Assembly (NCBI GenBank): GCA_019649675.1
Contig: BOWN01000002.1
Span: 1 to 64,000 of the forward strand
Length of the DNA stretch: 64,000 bases
From: Cryomorphaceae bacterium
GTDB lineage: Bacteria > Bacteroidota > Bacteroidia > Flavobacteriales > UBA7430
Direction of reading: 5' to 3'
This document shows positions 14,415 through 63,286 of this stretch, piece by piece. How positions within the stretch are numbered: position 1 is the stretch's first letter; every line of letters starts with the position of its first letter. The position numbers and the translations under genes were made by a program. The notes beneath the pieces were generated by a model. That model did no database searches. It was not told where the DNA came from and saw only the letters and a list, made by a program, of their open reading frames with translations.

Positions 14415-15442
14415 ATGAAAATGAGAAAAAATCTACTTTTTGCTTTTCTGATGATATTTTCAGTAAGCACTTTTGCTCAAAGAGTTGCTAACACTTTAAC
14501 TCCTTTAGTTCAAAAAAAATTTAGTGACAACCTTCAATTCCAACAAGCTGAAGGTGATACATTATTTTACTACGATTGTAGTAATCTACTTTACATGGAT
14601 GACACAGATTATGAATCTTTTGAGATAATGATGGAAGATTTTGATGAAGGAGTCCCTTCTCCTTATGATGGAGAAACTGATGCTGATCTTTTAGAATACG
14701 TTTCAAGCTTTTTCTGGCAGTATACTACAGACCAACCGAATGGCGTTGCTACATTTGATTATGATGAAAATACAGATCCTTCTGTACCAGATTCAGCTTG
14801 GTATTTTACTGCTTATTCATGGTTTACTGATGTGACTTTAGCTGCTGATAATTGGCTTGGAATGGGACCTGTTACAATTCCTGATGAAGGAGCTGCGTTA
14901 AAATTTCACTACAGAGGAGCTGTGAGTAACTGGAAAGATGGTTTTGATTTATACATCACTGAAGGTGGCATGGAACCATATAATGATGTTGATCCGGGAG
15001 AAACTGATGTAGCATACTCTATAGAAAGTAAGACCCCAGCTGCAGCTTCTGATACCATATGGGCTGAACATACTGTATCATTAAACGACTTTGCTGGTAA
15101 AAGTATTTATTTCACATTTCACCACACTGCAACAGATATGGAAAGAATTATGCTCGATGAATTCCTTATCGTTGAAACAAATGACATGGATATTAATGAT
15201 AGTGATTTTGATGCTTTAAATATTTCTCCAAATCCATCTAATGGTATATTTTCAATAACTTCAAACACTTCTGATATAAAAACAATTGAAATTGTTAATA
15301 TATTAGGGAGGTTATTGATACTAGAACTATTAATGGTTCTATTAAAGAAACATTTGACATGTCATCTTTCAGTACTGGAATGTATTTTGTTAAATCGTCT
15401 AACGGATCTACTAAAAGTACTCAAAGAATTATCATTAAATAA
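14415..15442 (+). CDS. Secreted protein with T9SS C-terminal sorting domain (frameshift near the C-terminus)
   Basis: Signal peptide 'MKMRKNLLFAFLMIFSVSTFAQ'; 'LNISPNPSNGIFSITSNTSDIKTIEIVNILGR' then, in another frame, 'MSSFSTGMYFVKSSNGSTKSTQRIIIK'. Confidence 0.8.
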
Positions 15443-46345: not shown

Positions 46346-47299
46346 GAATCAATATTTAATCGGTCTTCAATAACGTAATGATTACGCTCTGAACTTGAGC
46401 GTGAAATCAACTCTGCTATAAAACCAGTCATAAATAATTGAACACCAATAATCATGCATAAAATACCTAAATAGAACAAGGTCTATCAGTCATATTGTAT
46501 TCAAGCCAGATAAATTTAGCAAAAACTAGGAAGCAGCTATTCCAAAACCGGCAGTAAAAAAACCTACACCAATTAAACCAAACAAATGCATTGGTTTTTC
46601 CAAACTTGGACATAAACATCACAGTTAATAAAATCTAAAAATCCATTAATAAAACGTTCCATGCCAAATTTGGTTGCACCATATTTTCTTTCTTGGTGTT
46701 GAACTACTTTTTCGCAAATTTTAGGATAACCAGCAGATTTGGATAAAACAGGGATGTATCTGTGCATTTCTCCATATACTTCAATACTTTTTACAACTTC
46801 ATGTGATATGCCTTTAAACCACAGTTAAAATCCTTTAAATTTATACCTGACAACATTCTGGTGACAAAATTGAATAATTTTGTAGGAATGGTTTTAGATA
46901 AAGGGATCATATCTTTTTCCCTTTATCCAGAAACAAGATGATAACCATCCTTTTTATCATGTTATAAAGTTCTGGTATTTCTTCTGGACTATCTTGTAAA
47001 TCAGCATCCATAGTAATTACAACATCACCTTGAGCTTCCTTAAAAGCAACAAATCAAAGCAGCAGACTTACCATAATTTCTACGAAATTTAATTCCTTTA
47101 ACTTCATTATTATCTTTAGCCAATTGTTCTATAATTTCCCATGAATTATCAGTACTTCCATCGTCAACAAAAAAAACTTCATGGAAAAAAAAGATACTTA
47201 GCATCACTTTGAAATCCAAGAATACAACTCTGGCAACGATTCTGATTCGTTATAAAGGGGTATACATATTGATAATTGTAAATTATCCACTTTATTCAT
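46342..47299 (-). CDS. Glycosyltransferase family 2 (DPM-like, frameshifted)
   Basis: '[17 protein letters not shown]', '[19 protein letters not shown]', '[23 protein letters not shown]', '[23 protein letters not shown]' read across frames. Confidence 0.88.
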
Positions 47300-47816
47300 T
47301 AATAAATTCATTATTTTTCTTGGTAACGGCAGCCACAATCAACCCAAATAAGGTATATCCAACAATTTGTAACCAAATCCTTTTAACATATTCATTGGTG
47401 AGAAATTAGCTTCAGATTCCATCATTTCAATAGCACTAGATATTTGCTCATCAGACATGCCAAACGCTTCAATTGAATCACGCAGTGTTATTGTATATCG
47501 AGTAATTCTGATGAAAATTCAGGATCAATGATATTGAACAATAAAATATTAAAGACCAATAGAATAAAACCTGAAGCAATTAAAATTCCGTACATATACT
47601 AAAAGCGGATCTAAAATCAATATAACCATCTTGACTTTTTTTATAATGCAATAAGTAGTAAATAGGAAAAATTGCAGCCAATAATAATGCGGCATAACTT
47701 ACATAATATTTACAAAAGTTCTGCTCCAAAAGGTACTTAATAATATCTATACCCACATATATTCCACCGAGTACCAATCCATTTTTAAGGATGTATTGTT
47801 TTATTTCTTCTGACAT
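47293..47816 (-). CDS. DUF4199-like small membrane protein (frameshifted)
   Basis: 'QYILKNGLVLGGIYVGIDIIKYLL...YYLLHYKKSQDGYIDFRSAF' DUF4199 pattern; adjacent to GT2 as is typical. Confidence 0.75.
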
Positions 47817-47883
47817 CTTTTAATAAAATTATTTAAAACAAAGATAATAATCTATATATGAGTGGCAAATTTAAATATTAGGT

Positions 47884-47912
47884 AAAAAAGCCTCCGCAAG
47901 CGGAGGCTTTTA
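47884..47912 (-). terminator. Rho-independent terminator of giant surface gene 1
   Basis: AAAAAGCCTCCG-CAAG-CGGAGGCTTTTA perfect stem just after the stop at 47925. Confidence 0.88.
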
Positions 47913-47924
47913 TTATAGAGTTAG

Positions 47925-50900
47925 TTATCTAACAATTTTCTTCTCTACAGTTCCATCATTGTATAAATACAATACAACTTCTCCTTTGAATTGTTCGTCA
48001 ACATTCACTTCCTGACCTAACATATTAACAACTTTCACAAGTGTTCTAATGTCATTAGGGTGAATATCAACTTCCATTTCAATTGCCCATGCAGGAACTG
48101 TTGGAGTCATTTCAATACGCTGACCGTCAACATTTGGCCAAGTATACTGATCAATTGGAGCAGTGGTTTTCATTTGGTAACCTTGTCCAGGAACAAAATC
48201 TCCAATACCATTAAATCGAACTCTGGCCAATATACTTGTGCAGCATTATTTTTAATGATTTCAATATCACCAACTATATCAGCTACAGTAGCAGCAACAT
48301 CTTGTCCAAATGGAAGTGTATAACCTACAATGTTCCATCCTTCAAGAATATCAATATATATTGGATCACAAGAACCACTACCTGCATTTGCTAAGGCTTC
48401 ATCTAATAAAGCCTGTAATTCTGCTAACTCAGCAGCATGATCAGCAGCAACAGTTGCAGCTAATTCTTCTGCAGCAGCTACTGCAGCATTAACTGCAGCA
48501 TCTACATCAGCTTGAGACACACCATCTTCTGGAGTTACAGAAGCAGCACCATCTGCAAAGGCAGCAGCAGCTCATCATCAGTTATCAGAAGTAATATCTA
48601 CTGAAGCAGCACCATCTGCATAACCTCAGTACAGCTATTATCAGTAATGCACTGAAGCAGCACCTGCACCTACACAGTAAAAAGCCTCATCAGCACAGCT
48701 TGGTTATCTGATGTAATGTCTACTGAAGCAGCACCAGTCCTGCGTAACGCAGCGAGCTCACATCAGCATTATCGAAGTAATATCTCACTGAAGCAGCACC
48801 ATCTGCAAGCAGCAGCAGCACATCTGCATTATCTGAGTAATATCTACTGAAGCAGCACCATGCTGCTGCAGCAGCAGCTACATCTCATTATCTGAGTAAT
48901 ATCTACTGAAGCGGCACCTGCACCGTAACCATCACCGTAACCCCATCCGTAAGCCTCATCAGCTACAGCTTGGTTATCTGATGTAATGTCTACTGAAGCA
49001 GCACCATCTGCAAAGGCAGAATCAGCTACAGCTGGTTATCTGATGTAATATCTACTGATGCGCACCATCGCGCTACCTGCACGTAACCATCACCATAACC
49101 CCATCCGTAAGCCTCATCAGCTACAGCTTGGTTATCTAAAGTAATGTCTACTGAAGCAGCACCATTTGCAAAGGCAGAATCAGCTACAGTTTGGGTTATC
49201 TAAAGTAATATCTACTGAAGCGGCACCATCTGCCTACCTGCACCGTAACCTCACCTAACCCCATCCGTAAGCCTCATCAGCTACAGCTTGGTTATCTAAA
49301 GTAATTCTACTGAGCAGCACCCCCAAAGACCTTGTTCATATGCTTCAAGTCTTCAGTAGCACAATCAACAGGGAATTCACATAAACCATCTTCAACGTTA
49401 GCATCTGGATTAAAGTTAGTGCATTCTCATCTGTACAACCGGTAAATCTAAGTACAAGAACCATCATCAACATTTGCATCTGCATTAAAGTTGTTTGCAG
49501 ATCATCGTAATTCCAGGAACATCAACTGGTCAGGGACATAATGGATATGAAAAAAGTGCTTTTTCATTAGTTCCTGCTCCATCAGTAAAATTTTACACCA
49601 CCAAAAGACCAAGTTCCTCCCATTACTGAAAGCCCATGAATCCATGTACTCCCAGTTTTGGGCCGTACCTCAGTATCGATTCACCAAATGTTTCGATTAC
49701 AGTTTCACCTTCGAATAACTCAAAAACATCATCACCGTTTTGAAAACTGAACTACCAGCTTGAGTACATGCTCAAATTCAGACATACAGTCACCAAAGTA
49801 AGAGGACATTGCACAATACTTCTAGCGAGTAAGATGTCATCACCAGCAGATACTGACATAGAAGGAAGAGCTTCTTCCATACCTCAGTTCCACCACCTTA
49901 TTGGCAACACCTATTCCAAATACACTTAAATCAGCAATATCAGAATTAGCAACTAAATGATTGCTTTACCAGCTGATCCTGATATAGAAAGATCTAATAC
50001 ACCTTGTAAACTAAGGGCAAAAGTTAATACAGGTGGGTATGAACAAGAACCATCATCTACATTTGCATCAACATTTAGTTATCTGCATTTACATCTGTAC
50101 AACCTAGTACATCGTAAGTACAAGAACCATCATCTACATTTGATCCATTGAAGTTATTTGCAGCTGAATCTGTACAACCGGTACATCAAATAACATTCCA
50201 AATTCACCATCTGCGTTGCCCTTCGCAAGTACGCACCTGAAGCATCTGTAATTGACCAACTGTTCTCATGGCCATGAAACTGTTGCTTCATAATCTACTG
50301 TATTACATGCTGATAAATCAACACAACAAAAGTTGCTGAAGAAGAAACCAGAGTTAGTAGCTGTTACACCACCTACTGTTACTGATCCACCACCTCTCCG
50401 TATGAATCGAACATGTTGATTGTAACGCATCTCCTGATAAACAGTTTCCATCACAGTCAAACCTTCAGCAGCAAATGTACAAGACCATATCTTTTTGCAC
50501 TGCTATAGTTACAGCTTAGCACAGTACATCCTGCAACAAACCCCAAAAATCTCCAAATAATTTTTTAGTACCTGAACCCGCCAAGATCCCGGAAAGATCC
50601 AACCAAAAAAGAAACCAAGATGTTTCCCCTTCCCATCACCCCCGGTTTTCCCTGAAATTAAATAAAATCCTGAAATCAAAACATCCCGAAATGGGGCACC
50701 AAATGTAATACACCTGATTCTAAACTGAAATGTTTCCCCCATTTACCATATGAAACCACGCCCCTGGGAATAACACCTGATAAACAGTTTCCTTCACAGT
50801 CCAAACCTTCTTCAGCATAAGTACAGAACCATTATCTTTTTGCGGCATCGTAGTTACATGCTGAAACATCCATACATCCTTTTACTAAGCGTACTCACAT

Positions 50901-53900
50901 AATGAATTTCTGCAATATCTGCATCTGCATTATAGTTTTGCTTTCATCAACATCAGTTTAAAAATCCCAAAATTTCCAGCACCCGTTGCTACTCCCCCTT
51001 TAATATCTTAATTTTCCAAAATTTCTTAACCAAGAACCCGTTGCTTCATAAATTTCTAATTTCATCTGATAAATCAACGCACAACTAGTTGCTAAAAGTA
51101 AACAGAGTTGTTGCACATACCGAAACCTTCCAACCATCCCGTATGAATGCATTATTGTTTAAAAATTTTCCGATAAACAGTTTCCTCACAGTCAAACCTT
51201 CGCAGCATAAGTACATGAACCATTATCTTTTCTGCACAGCATTGTGTTAAAGCTTTAGCATCCACATCCTTGGGGGTTTTTGCTATTCACATAAACCATC
51301 ATCTCTATTTGCATCTCATTTAATTTCAGCGTTTCATCACCCATAGTTTCAATAGAAACTCCAACCCTTTCCAACCATTTTTCCCGAAAATAAGACCATT
51401 AAATTTCCAACCAACTTAAGTTGAAAAGAAACAACCCTATAATATCAACACCCTTTCTGTACTGCACAACCATTTTGTTTTTGAAAAGTAAATCCACCTT
51501 TAGCAAAATTGCACCCTTCCATCCCTCACCAAAAATTTTCATAGCCCCCTATAAAATTTCCAAGTAAGACCCTTCAGCTGGTACTCAATGACCACAACTA
51601 AATCTGCATCTGAAATTAAAGTTATTTTCGAACATCAGTACACCTTCCCCTAAAAGTACAAGAATCATCATCAAAGTTGCATTTTCATTAAAAATTTGCG
51701 CAGCTGTCTGTACATCCGTAAACAAAATAGTTAAACATAAATCATAATCGTTAACAGTAGCATTTGGATTGTATTTAGTAGTGACCATCCATACAACCAA
51801 CTACATCCTAGTACCAACATAAATATTCAAAAGAAAGATTTTCAACAAATTTCAATTCCATTTAATGAAAACAAATGATGTTTCAGTTACATAAACCCAT
51901 CAGAATTTTGAAGTAAAAGTGTAACAAATCACCTGCCATAGCACCATCAACTTCAGGACTATCGTGTCATCACCCATAACGGCAATTTGAATTGGTCCAC
52001 CATCAGACTCAGAAGACCCAACACACATATCACCAACGAAAGCACCAATAGTTCCAGAAAGACCAGCACCATTAGGAGCAAATAATGTCATATTTACACC
52101 TGTATTGACAAAGTCAAAATCAACTGCAGGACATGGAACTTCAACAAAAGGTTCACAAGGTGTTCCTCCGTAAGAAGCACATGCAACACCATCAAATCCT
52201 TCATTGAAGGCTCCGAAGCCGTCTGCATAAATACATCCGTACTCTGGTATATCATCACATGATGCATATACACATTGTAAATTACCATATTGGTCATATC
52301 CTTGAACTGTAGCATCTGCATTGTAGTTAGATGCATTTGCATCCATACAACCTACAACATCAGCACATCCAGCACTTAATGAAGTTGATGTTACGCTTCC
52401 TGCATCTCCTGCCGTTACAGCAACGTTTGCATTTGCACATCCATCACCCCATTGCATACCCCAACCTGACCAACCATCAGCTGATCCTGTTACGGCTACT
52501 ACATACTCAAATGTTGTTCCTGGGTCAACTTCTAACGATCCAGTGAATACTCCATCACCATCTTCATCAGATAATTGAACGCCCCATCCTTGCCAACCAT
52601 TCCATGAACCGTTAACAACAACATTGTCGTAATCTGCACTTGGCTGATCTACTAAATTCATATCAACAGCAAATTCTACTGTTGCTGTTGTTGGAGGGTA
52701 AGTACAAGAACCATCATCTACATTTGCATCTGCATTGAAGTTATTTGCAGCTGAATCTGTACAACCTGGTACATCAACTACACAGTTTCCAAATTCACCA
52801 TCTGCATCTGCACTGACGCTAATTCTATACCAGACGCATCTGTAATTGACCAGCTGTTCTCATATGACCATGCATCTGTTGCTTCATAATCTACTGCATT
52901 ACATGCTGATAAATCAACACATACTACAGTTGCTGAAGAAGAACCAGAGTTAGTAGCTGTTACACCACCTACTGTTACTGATCCACCACCGTCTCCGTAT
53001 GAATCGAACATGTTGATTGTAACTGCATCTCCAGATAAACAGTTTCCATCACAGTCAAATCCTTCAGGAGCAAATGTACATGAACCATTATCTTGTTCTG
53101 CCTGCGCATCGTAGTTACATGCTGAAGCATCCATACAACCTTGTACTAGAGCGTACTCACATAAACCATCATCCGTATTTGCATCTACATTATAGTTCTC
53201 AGCTGATTCGTCAGTACAGCCATAGACTACAATGTAAGAATCTCCACCACCACATACACAACACATTTCCTCGGAAATAAAGTCATCATCATTATAATTT
53301 CCACACCAACCTGGGAAGTTATTATATGCAGCACAACCATCTCCATAAGGATCTGTAGCACCATTATCTGTATCTGCACATGCTATTTCGTTACCTGCAC
53401 AGTCAAACCCTGCTTCTGCATATGTACATTCGGCATCTGTATTTGCTTCCGCATTATAATTACAAGCTGAAGCATCCATACAGCCTTCTACAATCAGTAA
53501 GTACTCACACAATGAATCATCTACAATATCTGCATCTGCATTATAATTCTCTGCTGATTCATCTGAACATCCAGATACACATCCTCCGAATAATCCATCT
53601 GCGTTAGCACCTTCAGCAAGTACTGCACCTGATGCATCTGTGATTGACCAACTGTTCTCATCTGGCCAAAAATCTGTTGATTCATAATCTACTGCATTAC
53701 ATGCTGATAAATCAACACACACTGAAGTTGCTGAAGAAGAACCAGAGTTAGTAGCTGTTACACCACCTACTGTTACTGATCCACCACCATCTCCGTAAGA
53801 ATCAAACATATTAATTGTAACTGCATCACCGATAAACAGTTTCCTTCACAGTCTAAACCTTCTGCTGGGTATTCACATGAACCGTTATCTTGTTCTGCAA

Positions 53901-56900
53901 CTATATCATAGTTACATGCTGAAGCATCTGTACATCCTTGTACTAATAAGTATTCACACGTTCCGTCATCTACATTTGCGTCTGCACTATAGTTAGCTGC
54001 ATTTGCGTCTGTACAACCTAATACAGCACAAGATGCTAAGTCAGAACCTTCTGAAACTCCTAATCCTTCTATACCGTATACTGCATCACCGATTGTTAGA
54101 GTGTTTCCATTCCAACCATCACCATATGAATCTGTCATAGATACTGAGTAACCTGCTGAAACATCTGCACATCCTGCAAATGGAGCACCACCTGACAATA
54201 TCACTGATCCATCACAAGCTGAAATTGTCCAGCCTACTTCAGATTGATATGATCCACCACCAGCTGTTACTGCAACACCTACTAAACAGTTTCCGTCACA
54301 GTCTAAACCTTCTGCAGCATATTCACATGAACCATCATCAACATTTGCATCTGCACTGAAGTTAGCTCAAGCTGAAGCATCTGTACAGCCTGGTACATCA
54401 TAAGTACAAGAACCATCATCAGAAGTTGCGTCTGCATTAAAGTTATTTTGCTGAAGCATCTGTACAACCTAGTACATCTGGCTCAGCAGTTCCTAAACAA
54501 CCTGCATCTTCTCCATTCACGGTTAAAACATCAAATTCTACATCTCCACTTGAGAATTGGAATTTAACTGTTCTATCAAAACTTACACCAGCTACTGTCT
54601 TAGTGTTTTCACCTAATGTTAGTGCTGTTGCAGGTCCATTATTAAAGTTTCCGTTTGCAACAGTCTTCACTACTCTATATGTTGCTCCACCTTCTGGTAA
54701 AGATGTAATATTCATAGTAAATGATTGAGCTCCTTGACTAGATGCTCCATCAGAAGTCAATGCTGCAGTAAGAACATGAGTCCATGTTGCATTTGGTCCA
54801 GCAGAGAAGTCATCACAATCAGCTATTGATGATCCAGCTGCTGGTTCTTCTGATAAAGAACAACCTGATTCAACTCCATTCACACTTAAAGCGTCAAATA
54901 CAACATCTCCACTTGAGAATTGGAACTTAACTGCTCTATCAAAACCAACACCACCTACAGTGAAAGTATTTTCACCAAGAGTTAATGCTGTAGCATTTCC
55001 AAAGAAACTACCTCCATTAGCTGTAGTTTTGAAAACTCTATAATTTGCTCCACCCTCAGGTAAAGACGTAATATTCATTGTAAAGGTTTGTGGACCTTGA
55101 CTAGCTGCTCCGTCAGCAACAGTTGCTGCTGTAAGAACGTGAGTCCAAGTTGCATTTGGTCCAGCAGCAAAATCACCACAATCTGCTATTGCTGTTCCTG
55201 CTGCAGGCTCAGGATATTCACATGATCCATCATCTACATTTGCATCTACGTTGAAGTTTGATGCAGTTAAATCTGTACAACCAAGTACATCATAAGTACA
55301 AGAACCATCATTTACATTTGCATCTGCGTTGAAGTTATTTGCTGATGCATCAGTACACCTGGAACAGGACATGTAGATAGTTCACCAGCAGTACCTTGTA
55401 ATAAAATGGCTCCATACCTAACATCAGATAAATCAGCTGATATATCCATGAAATTTTCGGAATCATAAGATCCACCACCTGCAACAACTGTAGCACCAGC
55501 TAAAAGCGCACCAGCTTGATCTAAATCTAAACATAAAGGTACAGATAAAATAAAGCCCTTGTAATGTTAAAGGTCCTAAAATTGTATTTCCTGAACAGTC
55601 AAGAGCAGAAATAGTTGCGCCATTCCATCCATCTCCAAAGAATCCATTAAATTTAATTCTGCTGCAATAAGGCCTGATAAACAGTTTCCTTCACAGTCTA
55701 AACCTTCAGCAGCAAATGTACAAGATCCATCGTCTGTGTTGCATCTGCGTTATAGTTAAAAATCTTCAGCAGTACATCCTGCAACACCACAATCTCCAAA
55801 TAATCCATCTTCGTTAGCACCTTCAGCAAGTACATGCACCAGATGCATCTGTAATTGACCAACTGTTCTCATCTGCATGCATCTGTTGCTTCATAATCTA
55901 CTGCATTACATGCTGATAAATCAACACATACTACAGTTGCTGAAGAAGAACCAGAGTTAGTAGCTGTTACACCACCTACTGTTACTGATCCACCACCGTC
56001 TCCGTATGAATCGAACATGTTGATTGTAACTGCATCTCCTGATAAACAGTTTCCATCACAGTCTAAACCTTCAGCAGCAAATGTACAAGATCCATCATCT
56101 GTTGTTGCATCTGCGTAAGTTACAAGCATCAGCAGCAGTACATCCTGCAACACCACAATCTCCAACACTCCAGCCTGACCGTAGCTCCTGAAAGATCACC
56201 AACAGACCAAGATGTTTCACTATCCCATGCACCTGGTGTCCATGTAACTGTATTACAGTCTAATAAATCAATACAAGCTTCAGCTGATGCACCATCAACA
56301 GTGTAATCTACGCCATTGATTGTCAATACTGCACCATTCCAACCATCACCATATGAATCAGTCATTGTTAAAATTGAACCTGAACATGGCTCTTCGGTAG
56401 CTTCTATTGTACCAGATACTGTTTGACCACCAGCACAAGTAGAAACTGTTACAGACCATTCATATGTCACAGTAGGATCTGCTGTAAATCCAGCATACCA
56501 GTGAGCATTTGCACCCCAGTCACTATAACCCATTTCATAATCTTCACCATTAATCGTTAATGAAGCATTACCTATATTAGGGTATGATTCTACTGTAATG
56601 AAAGTTTGTCCAGAATTTGAATCAAATCCTAAGAATCCGTCGCCATTTTGATCTCCTGCCCACTGAACTGCTTCATCATTACATGAAACACACGGTGTTC
56701 CTCCATAAGATGAACAGTTATCAGCATTAAAGTTTTCATTGAAAGCTCCAAATCCATCAGAATATATACATCCGTCTTCTGGGATATCATCACACGATGC
56801 ATAAACACATTGCAGGTTACCGTACTGATCATAACCTTGAATATTTGCATCAGCATTGAAATTAGATGCATTTGCATCCATACAACCTACTACATCTACA

Positions 56901-59169
56901 GGACCAGTATATTCTGAACCATTAACAGTTACACTATTTAGAGTAACAACAACATCTTGTGATAACACATAAAATAAGACTGAGTTAAAAGTATTGCCCT
57001 CTTGAGATGGAATATCAATTGTATATTCAGCTGACTCAGCACCTAAAGTTACAGATGTTGAATTGTAACTTGGCTCTGTATTAGGGTATGGATTCGCTTC
57101 GAATCTGAAATAAACATCAGCTGAGCCACCATCGGTAGAACCTGTAAATGTAACAGAACCTCCATCACCAAAAGTAAATGGATAAACAGATACATCTTCA
57201 TTTGCAAAACCAGCCCAAGGCTCTGAACCTGCAGGCATTAAGTATGAATTATCAGATGCAACAGTTCCACCAAAAGTTCCAGAAAAAACAATTCCGTAAA
57301 TACAAGAACCATCATCTGCAGTTGCGTCTGCATTAAAGTTATTTGCTGAAGCATCTGTACAACCTAGTACATCTGGCTCAGCAGTTCCTAAACAACCTGC
57401 ATCTTCTCCATTCACTGGTTAAAACATCAAATTCTACATCTCCACTTGAGAATTGGAATTTAACTGTTCTATCAAAACTTACACCAGCTACTGTCTTAGT
57501 GTTTTCACCTAATGTTAGTGCTGTTGCAGGTCCATTATTAAAGTTTCCGTTTGCAACAGTCTTCACTACTCTATATGTTGCTCCACCTTCTGGTAAAGAT
57601 GTAATATTCATAGTAAATGATTGAGCTCCTTGACTAGATGCTCCATCAGAAGTCAATGCTGCAGTAAGAACATGAGTCCATGTTGCATTTGGTCCAGCAG
57701 AGAAGTCATCACAATCAGCTATTGATGATCCGCTGCTGGTTCTTCTGATAAAGAACAACCTGATTCAACTCCATTCACACTTAAAGCGTCAAATACAACA
57801 TCTCCACTTGAGAATTGGAACTTAACTGCTCTGTCAAAACCAACACCACCTACAGTGAAAGTATTTTCACCAAGAGTTAATGCTGTTGCATTTCCAAAGA
57901 AACTACCTCCATTAGCTGTAGTTTTGAAAACTCTATAATTTGCTCCACCCTCAGGTAAAGACGTAATATTCATTGTAAAGGTTTGTGGACCTTGACTAGC
58001 TGCTCCGTCAGCAACAGTTGCTGCTGTAAGAACATGAGTCCAGTTGCATTTGGTCCAGCAGCAAAATCTCCACAGTCTGCTATTGCTGTTCCTGCTGCAG
58101 GCTCAGGATATTCACATGATCCATCATCTACATTTGCATCTACGTTGAAGTTTGATGCAGTTAAATCTGTACAACCAAGAATAGACTCTTCACAAGGAGT
58201 TCCGCCATAAGATGAACATAATCCAGCATTAAATCCTTCATTGAACGCTCCGAAGCCGTCTGCATAAATACATCCGTACTCTGGTATATCATCACATGAT
58301 GCATATACACATTGTAAGTTACCATATTGGTCATATCCTTGAACTGTAGCATCTGCATTGTAGTTAGATGCATTTGCATCCATACAACCTACAACATCAG
58401 CACATCCAGCACTTAATGAAGTTGATGTTACGCTTCCTGCATCTCCTGCCGTTACAGCAACGTTTGCATTTGCACATCCATCACCCCATTGCATACCCCA
58501 ACCTGACCAACCATCAGCTGATCCTGTTACGGCTACTACATACTCAAATGTTGTTCCTGGGTCAACTTCTAATGATCCAGTGAATACTCCATCACCATCT
58601 TCATCAGATAATTGAACGCCCCATCCTTGCCAACCATTCCATGAACCGTTAACAACAACATTGTCGTAATCTGCACTTGGCTGATCTACTAAATTCATAT
58701 CAACAGCAAATTCTACTGTTGCTGTTGTTGGAGCTGGAGGCTCACTTGAAGAAATTTCTAATGAAGCAACAAAAGCTGTTTCGTTAAGAGCATATGCTCC
58801 TTGATTTCCATTTGACAAGTAAGTTGCTGTAACATCTAGTGCATTACCGTCAGCATCACTAGCCAACCATGTAAATGCTTCTCCAGCAGCCATACCGTTA
58901 TCCAAACCAGCTTCAGAACCCCAAAGAGTAATCTGAAATGGTTCACCTACAGAAGGCATACTTAATGGAGAACCTGCACATTGAAGCACACCATCATCAT
59001 TGGTAAAGAATATACCAATGTTGGCAACGTTAGCTTCTGAAGCAAATCCTTGCGTCATAAAAACGGTCATATTAGACCCGGTGTTCGTCACAGAAAAGTC
59101 CTGCGCGCTCAATTGACCGGAGGTCAAGAGCAACACCACACTAAAGAAAAAATTATAGATTTTTCTCAT
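47925..59169 (-). CDS. Giant modular secreted/surface protein 1 (Cys/Asp-rich GCTD repeats, CBM-like domains, repetitive stalk, shared C-terminal module); about 11.2 kb, broken by many apparent indels
   Basis: Signal peptide 'MRKIYNFFFSVVLLLTSGQLSAQ' at 59169 and C-term '..VKVVNMLGQEVNVDEQFKGEVVLYLYNDGTVEKKIVR' at 47925; no internal signal peptide or terminator seen; dense 'GCTDxxAxNYNxxAxxDDGSCxY' repeats in minus-strand frames between. Confidence 0.75.
48390..48535 (-). other. Ala-rich predicted coiled-coil segment of surface protein 1
   Basis: 'MSQADVDAAVNAAVAAAEELAATVAADHAAELAELQALLDEALANAGSGSC'. Confidence 0.7.
48540..49312 (-). repeat. Tandem protein-stalk repeat, about 11 copies of 'ASVDIT(S/L)DNQAVAD..A...' with long ('EAYGWGYGDGYGAGAAS') and short ('SAFADGAAS') forms
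   Basis: Plus-strand motif 'gatgtaatatctactgaagcagcacc' and variants recur about 11 times; reverse complement encodes SVDITSDNQAVAD... Confidence 0.85.
50400..51900 (-). other. Low-quality/degenerate consensus stretch inside surface gene 1
   Basis: No convincing ORF; sequence is a corrupted copy of modules intact at about 52.8-56.3 kb, with many indels and spurious C-runs. Confidence 0.7.
52198..52697 (-). repeat. Block Y copy 2 (about 500 bp near-identical duplication of 58235-58734)
   Basis: Constant offset of 6037 nt at both ends checked ('cgaagccgtctg' 52214/58251; 'gttgctgttgttggag' 52681/58718); encodes the same CBM-like + GCMD module. Confidence 0.9.
54404..55285 (-). repeat. Block X copy 2 (about 880 bp near-identical duplication of 57297-58179)
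   Basis: Offset about 2894-2895 nt; both encode the tandem 'ADC(G/D)DFxAGPNATWTHVLTAA...MNITSLPEGGAxYRV' pair with flanking GCTD repeats. Confidence 0.9.
57297..58179 (-). repeat. Block X copy 1
   Basis: See 54404-55285. Confidence 0.9.
58235..58734 (-). repeat. Block Y copy 1
   Basis: See 52198-52697. Confidence 0.9.
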
Positions 59170-59171
59170 CT

Positions 59172-59180
59172 GGGGGGGGG
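59172..59180 (-). repeat. Homopolymeric C(9) tract 2 nt upstream of the ATG of surface gene 1
   Basis: Plus strand 'tctCATctGGGGGGGGGtttaag'; on minus strand TTAAACCCCCCCCCAGATG. Confidence 0.8.
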
Positions 59181-59213
59181 TTTAAGTTAAAATTAAAATT
59201 CACAGTTAATCTT

Positions 59214-59244
59214 CAAATATAATGTTTTTCTATAAAAATTCAAA
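59214..59244 (-). promoter_or_regulatory. Predicted Bacteroidota sigma-A promoter of surface gene 1: TTTG-N19-TATATTTG
   Basis: Minus strand -33 TTTG (59244-59241) and -7 TAnnTTTG (59221-59214), 19 bp spacing, about 45 nt upstream of the ATG. Confidence 0.65.
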
Positions 59245-59254
59245 TTCTTTAAAA

Positions 59255-59284
59255 TAAAAAAGCGGTGCAAAAACACCGCTTTTC
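59255..59284 (-). terminator. Rho-independent terminator of surface gene 2
   Basis: AAAAAAGCGGTG-CAAAAA-CACCGCTTTT just after the stop at 59306. Confidence 0.87.
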
Positions 59285-63253: not shown

Positions 63254-63286
63254 AATTAGGGAGGATTAAAATTTATTTAAATATAC

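Follow-up and report, generated by a model that had tools for sequence, protein, structure and literature searches.

Within the window, the 64,000-nucleotide stretch of a Cryomorphaceae bacterium contig that is analysed here, a run of nine C residues lies just before the start codon of a surface-protein gene, and the question raised by this locus is what such a run does in that place. An earlier sequence-only reading proposed it as a candidate phase-variation switch; the view of it as a solitary switch has to be corrected, as the tract is not a lone oddity. It is probably the docking target, at the ribosome site, of predicted trans-acting sRNAs with an oligo-G loop that would control surface proteins.

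The C9 tract and the C-rich leaders of the family

The tract is real and is improbable by chance. It is the only run of G or C longer than six in the window, for which a first-order model predicts about 0.003 G9 runs and about 0.025 C9 runs, and it is thus an unusually long homopolymer adjoining a surface gene, as is looked for in contingency loci. The 1.74 Mb assembly has one further C9/G9 (G000 C2:272226-272234, G000 being the window's own genome and the other G numbers relatives; 12 family genomes were compared), which is in frame (W-G-G-A) within a DPP-IV-like peptidase gene; that gene is itself split by frame changes. On the minus strand the tract reads AAA-C9-AG-ATG (plus strand 59167-59186, CAT CT GGGGGGGGG TTTAAG), in a layout of TTTG-N19-TATATTTG, about 33 nt, then TTTTAACTTAAA-CCCCCCCCC-AG-ATG. 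The features of the locus are:

59172..59180, minus strand: C9 tract in the 5' leader of the surface-protein gene, read from the sequence and kept in G002 (C9) and G010 (C5); proposed pairing site of oligo-G sRNAs
59167..59169, minus strand: ATG start codon, with AG (2 nt) between tract and ATG; the protein starts MRKIYNFFF, its orthologues MRKIFHFFC and MRKIYTFFC
59181..59192, minus strand: TTTTAACTTAAA element immediately 5' of the C tract, with an A-rich patch at about -12 to -14 (aligned leaders; the genome-wide A peak of G002 is at -13 to -10)
59214..59221, minus strand: -7 promoter element TATATTTG (TAnnTTTG), read from the sequence; the two orthologues have it too, 27-33 nt ahead of their tracts
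59241..59244, minus strand: -33 promoter element TTTG, N19 from the -7 element, read from the sequence
59254..59283, minus strand: intrinsic terminator of the upstream gene (GCGGTG..CACCGC and T-run), read from the sequence; a similar hairpin stands ahead of the leader in G002 and G010
57970..59169, minus strand: first open part of the surface-protein gene, 399 aa, with signal peptide, NTGSNMT domain and GCTD-type repeat, read from the sequence; further downstream the gene is broken by frame changes of the kind common in this assembly
63259..63264, minus strand: CCTCCC, an interrupted form of the C-rich element, followed after 5 nt by the ATG (63253) of another surface gene, of NTGTNMT type, read from the sequence; predicted duplex with a G002 oligo-G RNA

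The promoter and the short leader that had been described for this gene are therefore present as claimed, with the tract lying between a Bacteroidota-type promoter and the ATG. As the upstream gene is closed by its own intrinsic terminator, the C tract belongs to the short leader of a separate transcript. The gene starts with MRKIYNFFFSVVLLLTSGQLSAQ, a signal peptide, which is followed by the NTGSNMT domain and then GCTD-type repeats; neither in Pfam nor in NCBIfam did these surface-protein domains receive a significant name.

A comparison of leaders between relatives had been proposed as a check on the tract, and it comes out in its favour. The orthologous leaders can be aligned and have a tract in the same place, with C9 then TAG ATG in G002 and C5 then ATC ATG in G010. 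It is apparent that this is one case of a wider pattern, as a C-rich element ending 1-7 nt before the ATG is recurrent upstream of secreted NTGxNMT/GCTD genes in one Flavobacteriales family. In a family-wide search TTTAACT-N2-8-C5-N0-12-ATG had 16 sites and the reversed pattern 1. The stricter pattern TTTAACTAA-N0-4-CCCCC has 11 sites in the 12 family genomes, the identical 11 with or without the requirement for an ATG, all of them immediately preceding the ATG of a predicted secreted protein whose start resembles a signal peptide, and has 0 sites in 286 other genomes of the order. In further NMT genes the C-rich element stands on its own, with no TTTAACTAA, and some NMT genes are without any C-rich leader.

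When the genes of G002 were counted, 7 of the 18 NMT/GCTD secreted genes had a C run of at least five within 18 nt of the ATG, as did 7 of the 1242 others (Fisher 1e-10), these class counts being approximate as start codons were assigned by simple rules; the census covered 1.53 Mb of G002 and 0.46 Mb of G000. Four of the seven "other" genes also have signal-peptide-like starts, and two of the three C9/G9 runs of G002 are leaders of the NMT/GCTD type. The element is not limited to surface proteins, with a small ArsR-type regulator (HTH_5) keeping a C-rich leader in 8 family genomes. The C run is uninterrupted in the MRKIY and MKKL orthologue sets and interrupted in the ArsR-type (e.g. CCCCTCCCC, CCCCCTCC) and QCDL-type leaders. 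The ArsR-type regulator may belong to the same regulon as the surface-protein genes, or may control that regulon. As part of the docking-site explanation, it is likely that the C-rich element of the translation-initiation region marks a regulon of secreted NTGxNMT/GCTD proteins together with this regulator.

In the sister family f7 the NMT-type genes have a different conserved leader with no C run. TAGTAGCTATGAAA occurs once per genome in 9 of 12 genomes of that family (reversed pattern 0), and at the sites read it stands at the start of an NMT-type surface gene, thus f7 has a conserved start-region motif of its own. The 19 matches to the leader pattern in IMG/VR are unrelated sequence, none being ahead of a recognisable surface gene of this kind. 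In a search of openly licensed papers neither leaders with a C tract nor oligo-G sRNAs were found described for this group.

A predicted family of oligo-G RNAs

When the longest C and G runs of G002 were listed, two near-identical intergenic G8 sites came to light, with a third found nearby on inspection. These three tandem-type copies, at G002 C39:14138-14204, 14442-14507 and 14648-14714, have a TAnnTTTG promoter, CATTTTAATCCTGGGGGGGGTTAGAG (or the variant TCCTGTGGGGGGG), a strong hairpin and a T-run. A single-copy form, TTTCATAATCCTGGGGGG-ATTA..GCCACTC..GAGTGGC-T-run with small variations, is found in G000, G002, G006, G009 and G011; the two loci in G000 are C3:53249-53306 and C1:217231-217287. 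The first of these (L339 750-807) is located just 3' of a GCTD-repeat gene (L339 1-622). There are no more than four copies per genome, including the tandem triplets.

The anatomy of the RNA is a promoter of the TAnnTTTG or sigma54-like kind, a hairpin UAAUCCUGGGGGG..UUA whose loop is oligo-G, and an intrinsic terminator that shows covariation. TAnnTTTG is immediately 5' of most tandem-type copies, most single copies having a GG-N10-GC sigma54-like promoter (TTGGCAAGATTTTAGC), and both a protein with the RpoN box and the GSFTGA motif of sigma54 activators (NtrC-type) were found in the sampled sequence. The loop of the first hairpin holds U-G(4-5), with more G's in the stem, and in two RNAs of the single-copy type the G run is only 4-5 G.

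Six copies, the three tandem genes of G002 and single copies from G002, G000 and G011, served as seeds; each has TWATCCTG(T)GGGGGG, a terminator and a T-run, with folding z-scores of -2.8 to -6.4. Rfam covariance models run against six loci holding RNA copies or leaders matched only tmRNA and a tRNA. The covariance model built from the seeds gave 21 matches of at least 41 bits across 298 genomes, all in this family, with the best match outside it (40.3 bits) falling within a continuous background of terminator-like matches; a copy in G010 scores 36.4 bits, yet has the full anatomy. In a structure alignment of 21 copies (20 of the matches of at least 41 bits, one of an identical pair being omitted, and the weaker G010 copy) 95.9% of cells are paired, and there are 61 both-side changes against 20 when shuffled, a number reached in 0 of 500 shuffles. 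These changes occur in 12 of 20 pairs, mostly in the terminator, with 2 pairs in the first hairpin. At the level of sequence the loci thus have what is asked of trans-encoded sRNAs, namely their own promoter and intrinsic terminator and a conserved structure with covariation, and they form a family that was previously unlisted and is absent from Rfam.

The search detected no oligo-G RNA in G001, G004 and G005, all three of which are incomplete, nor in G007 (92% complete), though G007 has C-tract leaders. A site in G008 (C33, L341 102) with CCTG then G11 was set aside, as its anatomy is not that of the sRNA and its flanks look like coding DNA.

The G run of the RNAs is complementary to the C run of the leaders, and leader and RNA are confined to the same family. 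In some single copies there is in addition a UUUCAU, the complement of the AUGAAA that is a frequent start of C-leader genes. For the MRKIY leader of G000 and an RNA of that genome the predicted duplex is -21.8 kcal/mol; co-folded, the two come to -39.5, while as separate strands they come to -21.2; for the CCTCCC element of the window's second surface gene (63259-63264) and a G002 RNA the value is -28.4 against -15.5 for shuffled flanks, all duplex energies being calculated without regard to accessibility, with part of the G run inside a hairpin stem. When 1284 start regions of G002 were ranked by duplex energy, the top 7 all had signal-peptide-like starts. It is the homopolymer that gives most of the strength: the G-run/C-run pairing is strong and the extra flank pairing weak, the flanks of the sRNA giving a mean energy only modestly better than shuffled flanks (p 0.02-0.17), with significance leader by leader for a few leaders only.

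If these RNAs are made in the cell, the oligo-G loop of the UAAUCCUGGGGGG..UUA hairpin would pair with the leader C run, in the case of some RNAs extending over the AUG, and the duplex would cover about -10 to +3, where it would keep ribosomes from loading. As the paired region overlaps the ribosome site, repression would be the simplest outcome.

Other explanations of the tract

Beside the docking of an sRNA, which is the reading favoured here, there is the idea of slipped-strand tuning. Under this explanation changes in the number of C's would alter how far the A-rich patch stands from the ATG, or alter pairing with a regulator, and so tune translation cell by cell. The MKKL-type orthologues of six species have C6, C7, C7, C8, C6 and C9 with nearly identical flanks, and tract lengths run from C5 to C9 between species with similar flanks, which fits slippage over evolutionary time, the differences being between species as each is represented by one genome. 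A change of length would displace an A patch that coincides with the peak of A across the genome (-13 to -10), and in F. johnsoniae adenines at -3, -6, -12 and -13 are known to promote initiation (PMC6847099).

Against this, interrupted tracts are kept (CCCCTCCCC, CCCCCTCC, CCTCCC), and the length of the C run is offset by the filler behind it. Across 40 leaders, a list partly collected by patterns that restrict filler length and including related genes, C length and filler are negatively related (Spearman -0.51, p 0.0009), and the two add up to 10.25 +/- 1.6, a spread narrower than that of permuted sums (permutation p 0.003). This compensation would keep the upstream edge of the tract about 10 nt from the ATG, which is supportive of selection to hold spacing rather than conclusive; the sum puts the A-rich patch at the A peak of G002. 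An effect on coding is impossible, since the C run is not part of the ORF and a stop codon in frame stands just 5' of it, which disposes of phase variation of the frame type, and the G000 assembly is too noisy for lengths to be read from it. Slippage at the start of transcription within the C run is also unlikely, as the distance from TAnnTTTG to the C run spans 6-48 nt. The change of length between species agrees with the switch first proposed; an on/off form of it is opposed by the out-of-frame position, the interruptions and the compensated spacing. Given the interruptions and the compensation, slippage is kept as a rival that is rather unlikely to be the main explanation.

The compensated spacing also suits a passive role, in which the C's do no more than keep the A-rich patch properly spaced within an unstructured leader, with no trans regulator. 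The C run is predicted to be mostly unpaired (mean pairing probability 0.12-0.31), folding gave no support to a hairpin inside the leader, and the upstream edge is kept near -10. Such a spacer, however, explains neither the choice of C nor its restriction to surface-protein genes and one regulator, and leaves the complementary oligo-G RNAs of the same family without a reason; it is improbable.

Slightly more doubtful again is a binding site for a protein, be it an RNA-binding one (cold-shock protein, bS1 or other) or a regulator that binds DNA, for example the ArsR-type protein, whose gene has the leader as well. Cold-shock-domain proteins are present and the ArsR-type gene itself carries the C-rich element, but no RRM_1 protein was found in the four genomes tested, and a C run at a fixed distance from the ATG and a variable one (6-48 nt) from the promoter suits translation instead of DNA binding. 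ArsR proteins are expected to bind a palindromic site, which a homopolymer is not.

That the tract is an error of assembly or basecalling has almost no chance of being right, for although the G000 assembly is error-rich, independent genomes, among them G002, in which no frame change was detected, show a tract in the corresponding position of a leader that can be aligned, and only its exact length is open to doubt. The alignment of G002 proteins to G000 gave 98 frame changes in 128 genes, about 0.6 per kb of coding sequence, with 0 in 98 genes in the reverse comparison; the number nine is uncertain to the base, the existence of the tract being certain from the independent genomes. The surface-protein frames at window positions 47000-59169 and elsewhere in G000 are broken by many single-base indels, and in such an assembly these breaks are not to be taken as pseudogenes.

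Likeness to known systems

Returning to the docking of oligo-G sRNAs on the C tract, a broader and more tentative proposal is that a Bacteroidota lineage without initiation of the Shine-Dalgarno type may have evolved a C-tract tag at the Shine-Dalgarno position, read by multi-copy sRNAs with an oligo-G loop, some under sigma54, that jointly control the repertoire of surface proteins, with slippage in a C or a G run retuning single genes or the whole regulon. If true, this homopolymer code of mRNA C tract and RNA G loop, common to surface-protein genes, would be a simple answer to how sRNAs target ribosome sites where there is no Shine-Dalgarno sequence, and would join riboregulation with mutable homopolymers, ideas that are usually kept apart. 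Among the openly licensed papers searched, sRNA circuits in Flavobacteriales are little described.

Gram-positive sRNAs with C-rich loops, such as the UCCC-motif RNAs of S. aureus, pair with Shine-Dalgarno sequences. The RNAs described here are similar in having a short, homopolymer-like loop that would be directed at the ribosome sites of numerous mRNAs, with the polarity reversed, the loop being G-rich and the mRNA C-rich.

In Beggiatoaceae, Cyanobacteria and some Bacteroidetes, TAACTGA repeats stand just 5' of start codons (PMC4679880), likewise a short repeated motif that overlaps ribosome sites in many genes and has been put forward as a post-transcriptional site. Their sequence is different, they are tied to no functional class of genes, and they are not known to have a complementary RNA.

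Phase-variable homopolymeric tracts are established in Neisseria, Campylobacter and Helicobacter, and homopolymer tracts in general are treated in PMC2831843. The C9 tract resembles them as a long mononucleotide run adjoining a surface-protein gene, with a length that differs between species, but it lies outside the coding frame and does not separate promoter elements, and interruptions are tolerated and spacing compensated.

The Qrr RNAs of Vibrio are sibling trans-acting sRNAs that are sigma54-dependent and present in multiple copies (reviewed in PMC4211561). The oligo-G family differs from them in having no Rfam match, in using an oligo-G loop as the pairing core, in its Bacteroidota host and in the TAnnTTTG promoter of its tandem copies. 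This predicted family is like Qrr in having several near-identical copies per genome, each with its own promoter and terminator, a conserved core for which pairing with several mRNAs is proposed, and sigma54-like GG-N10-GC promoters in most of its single copies.
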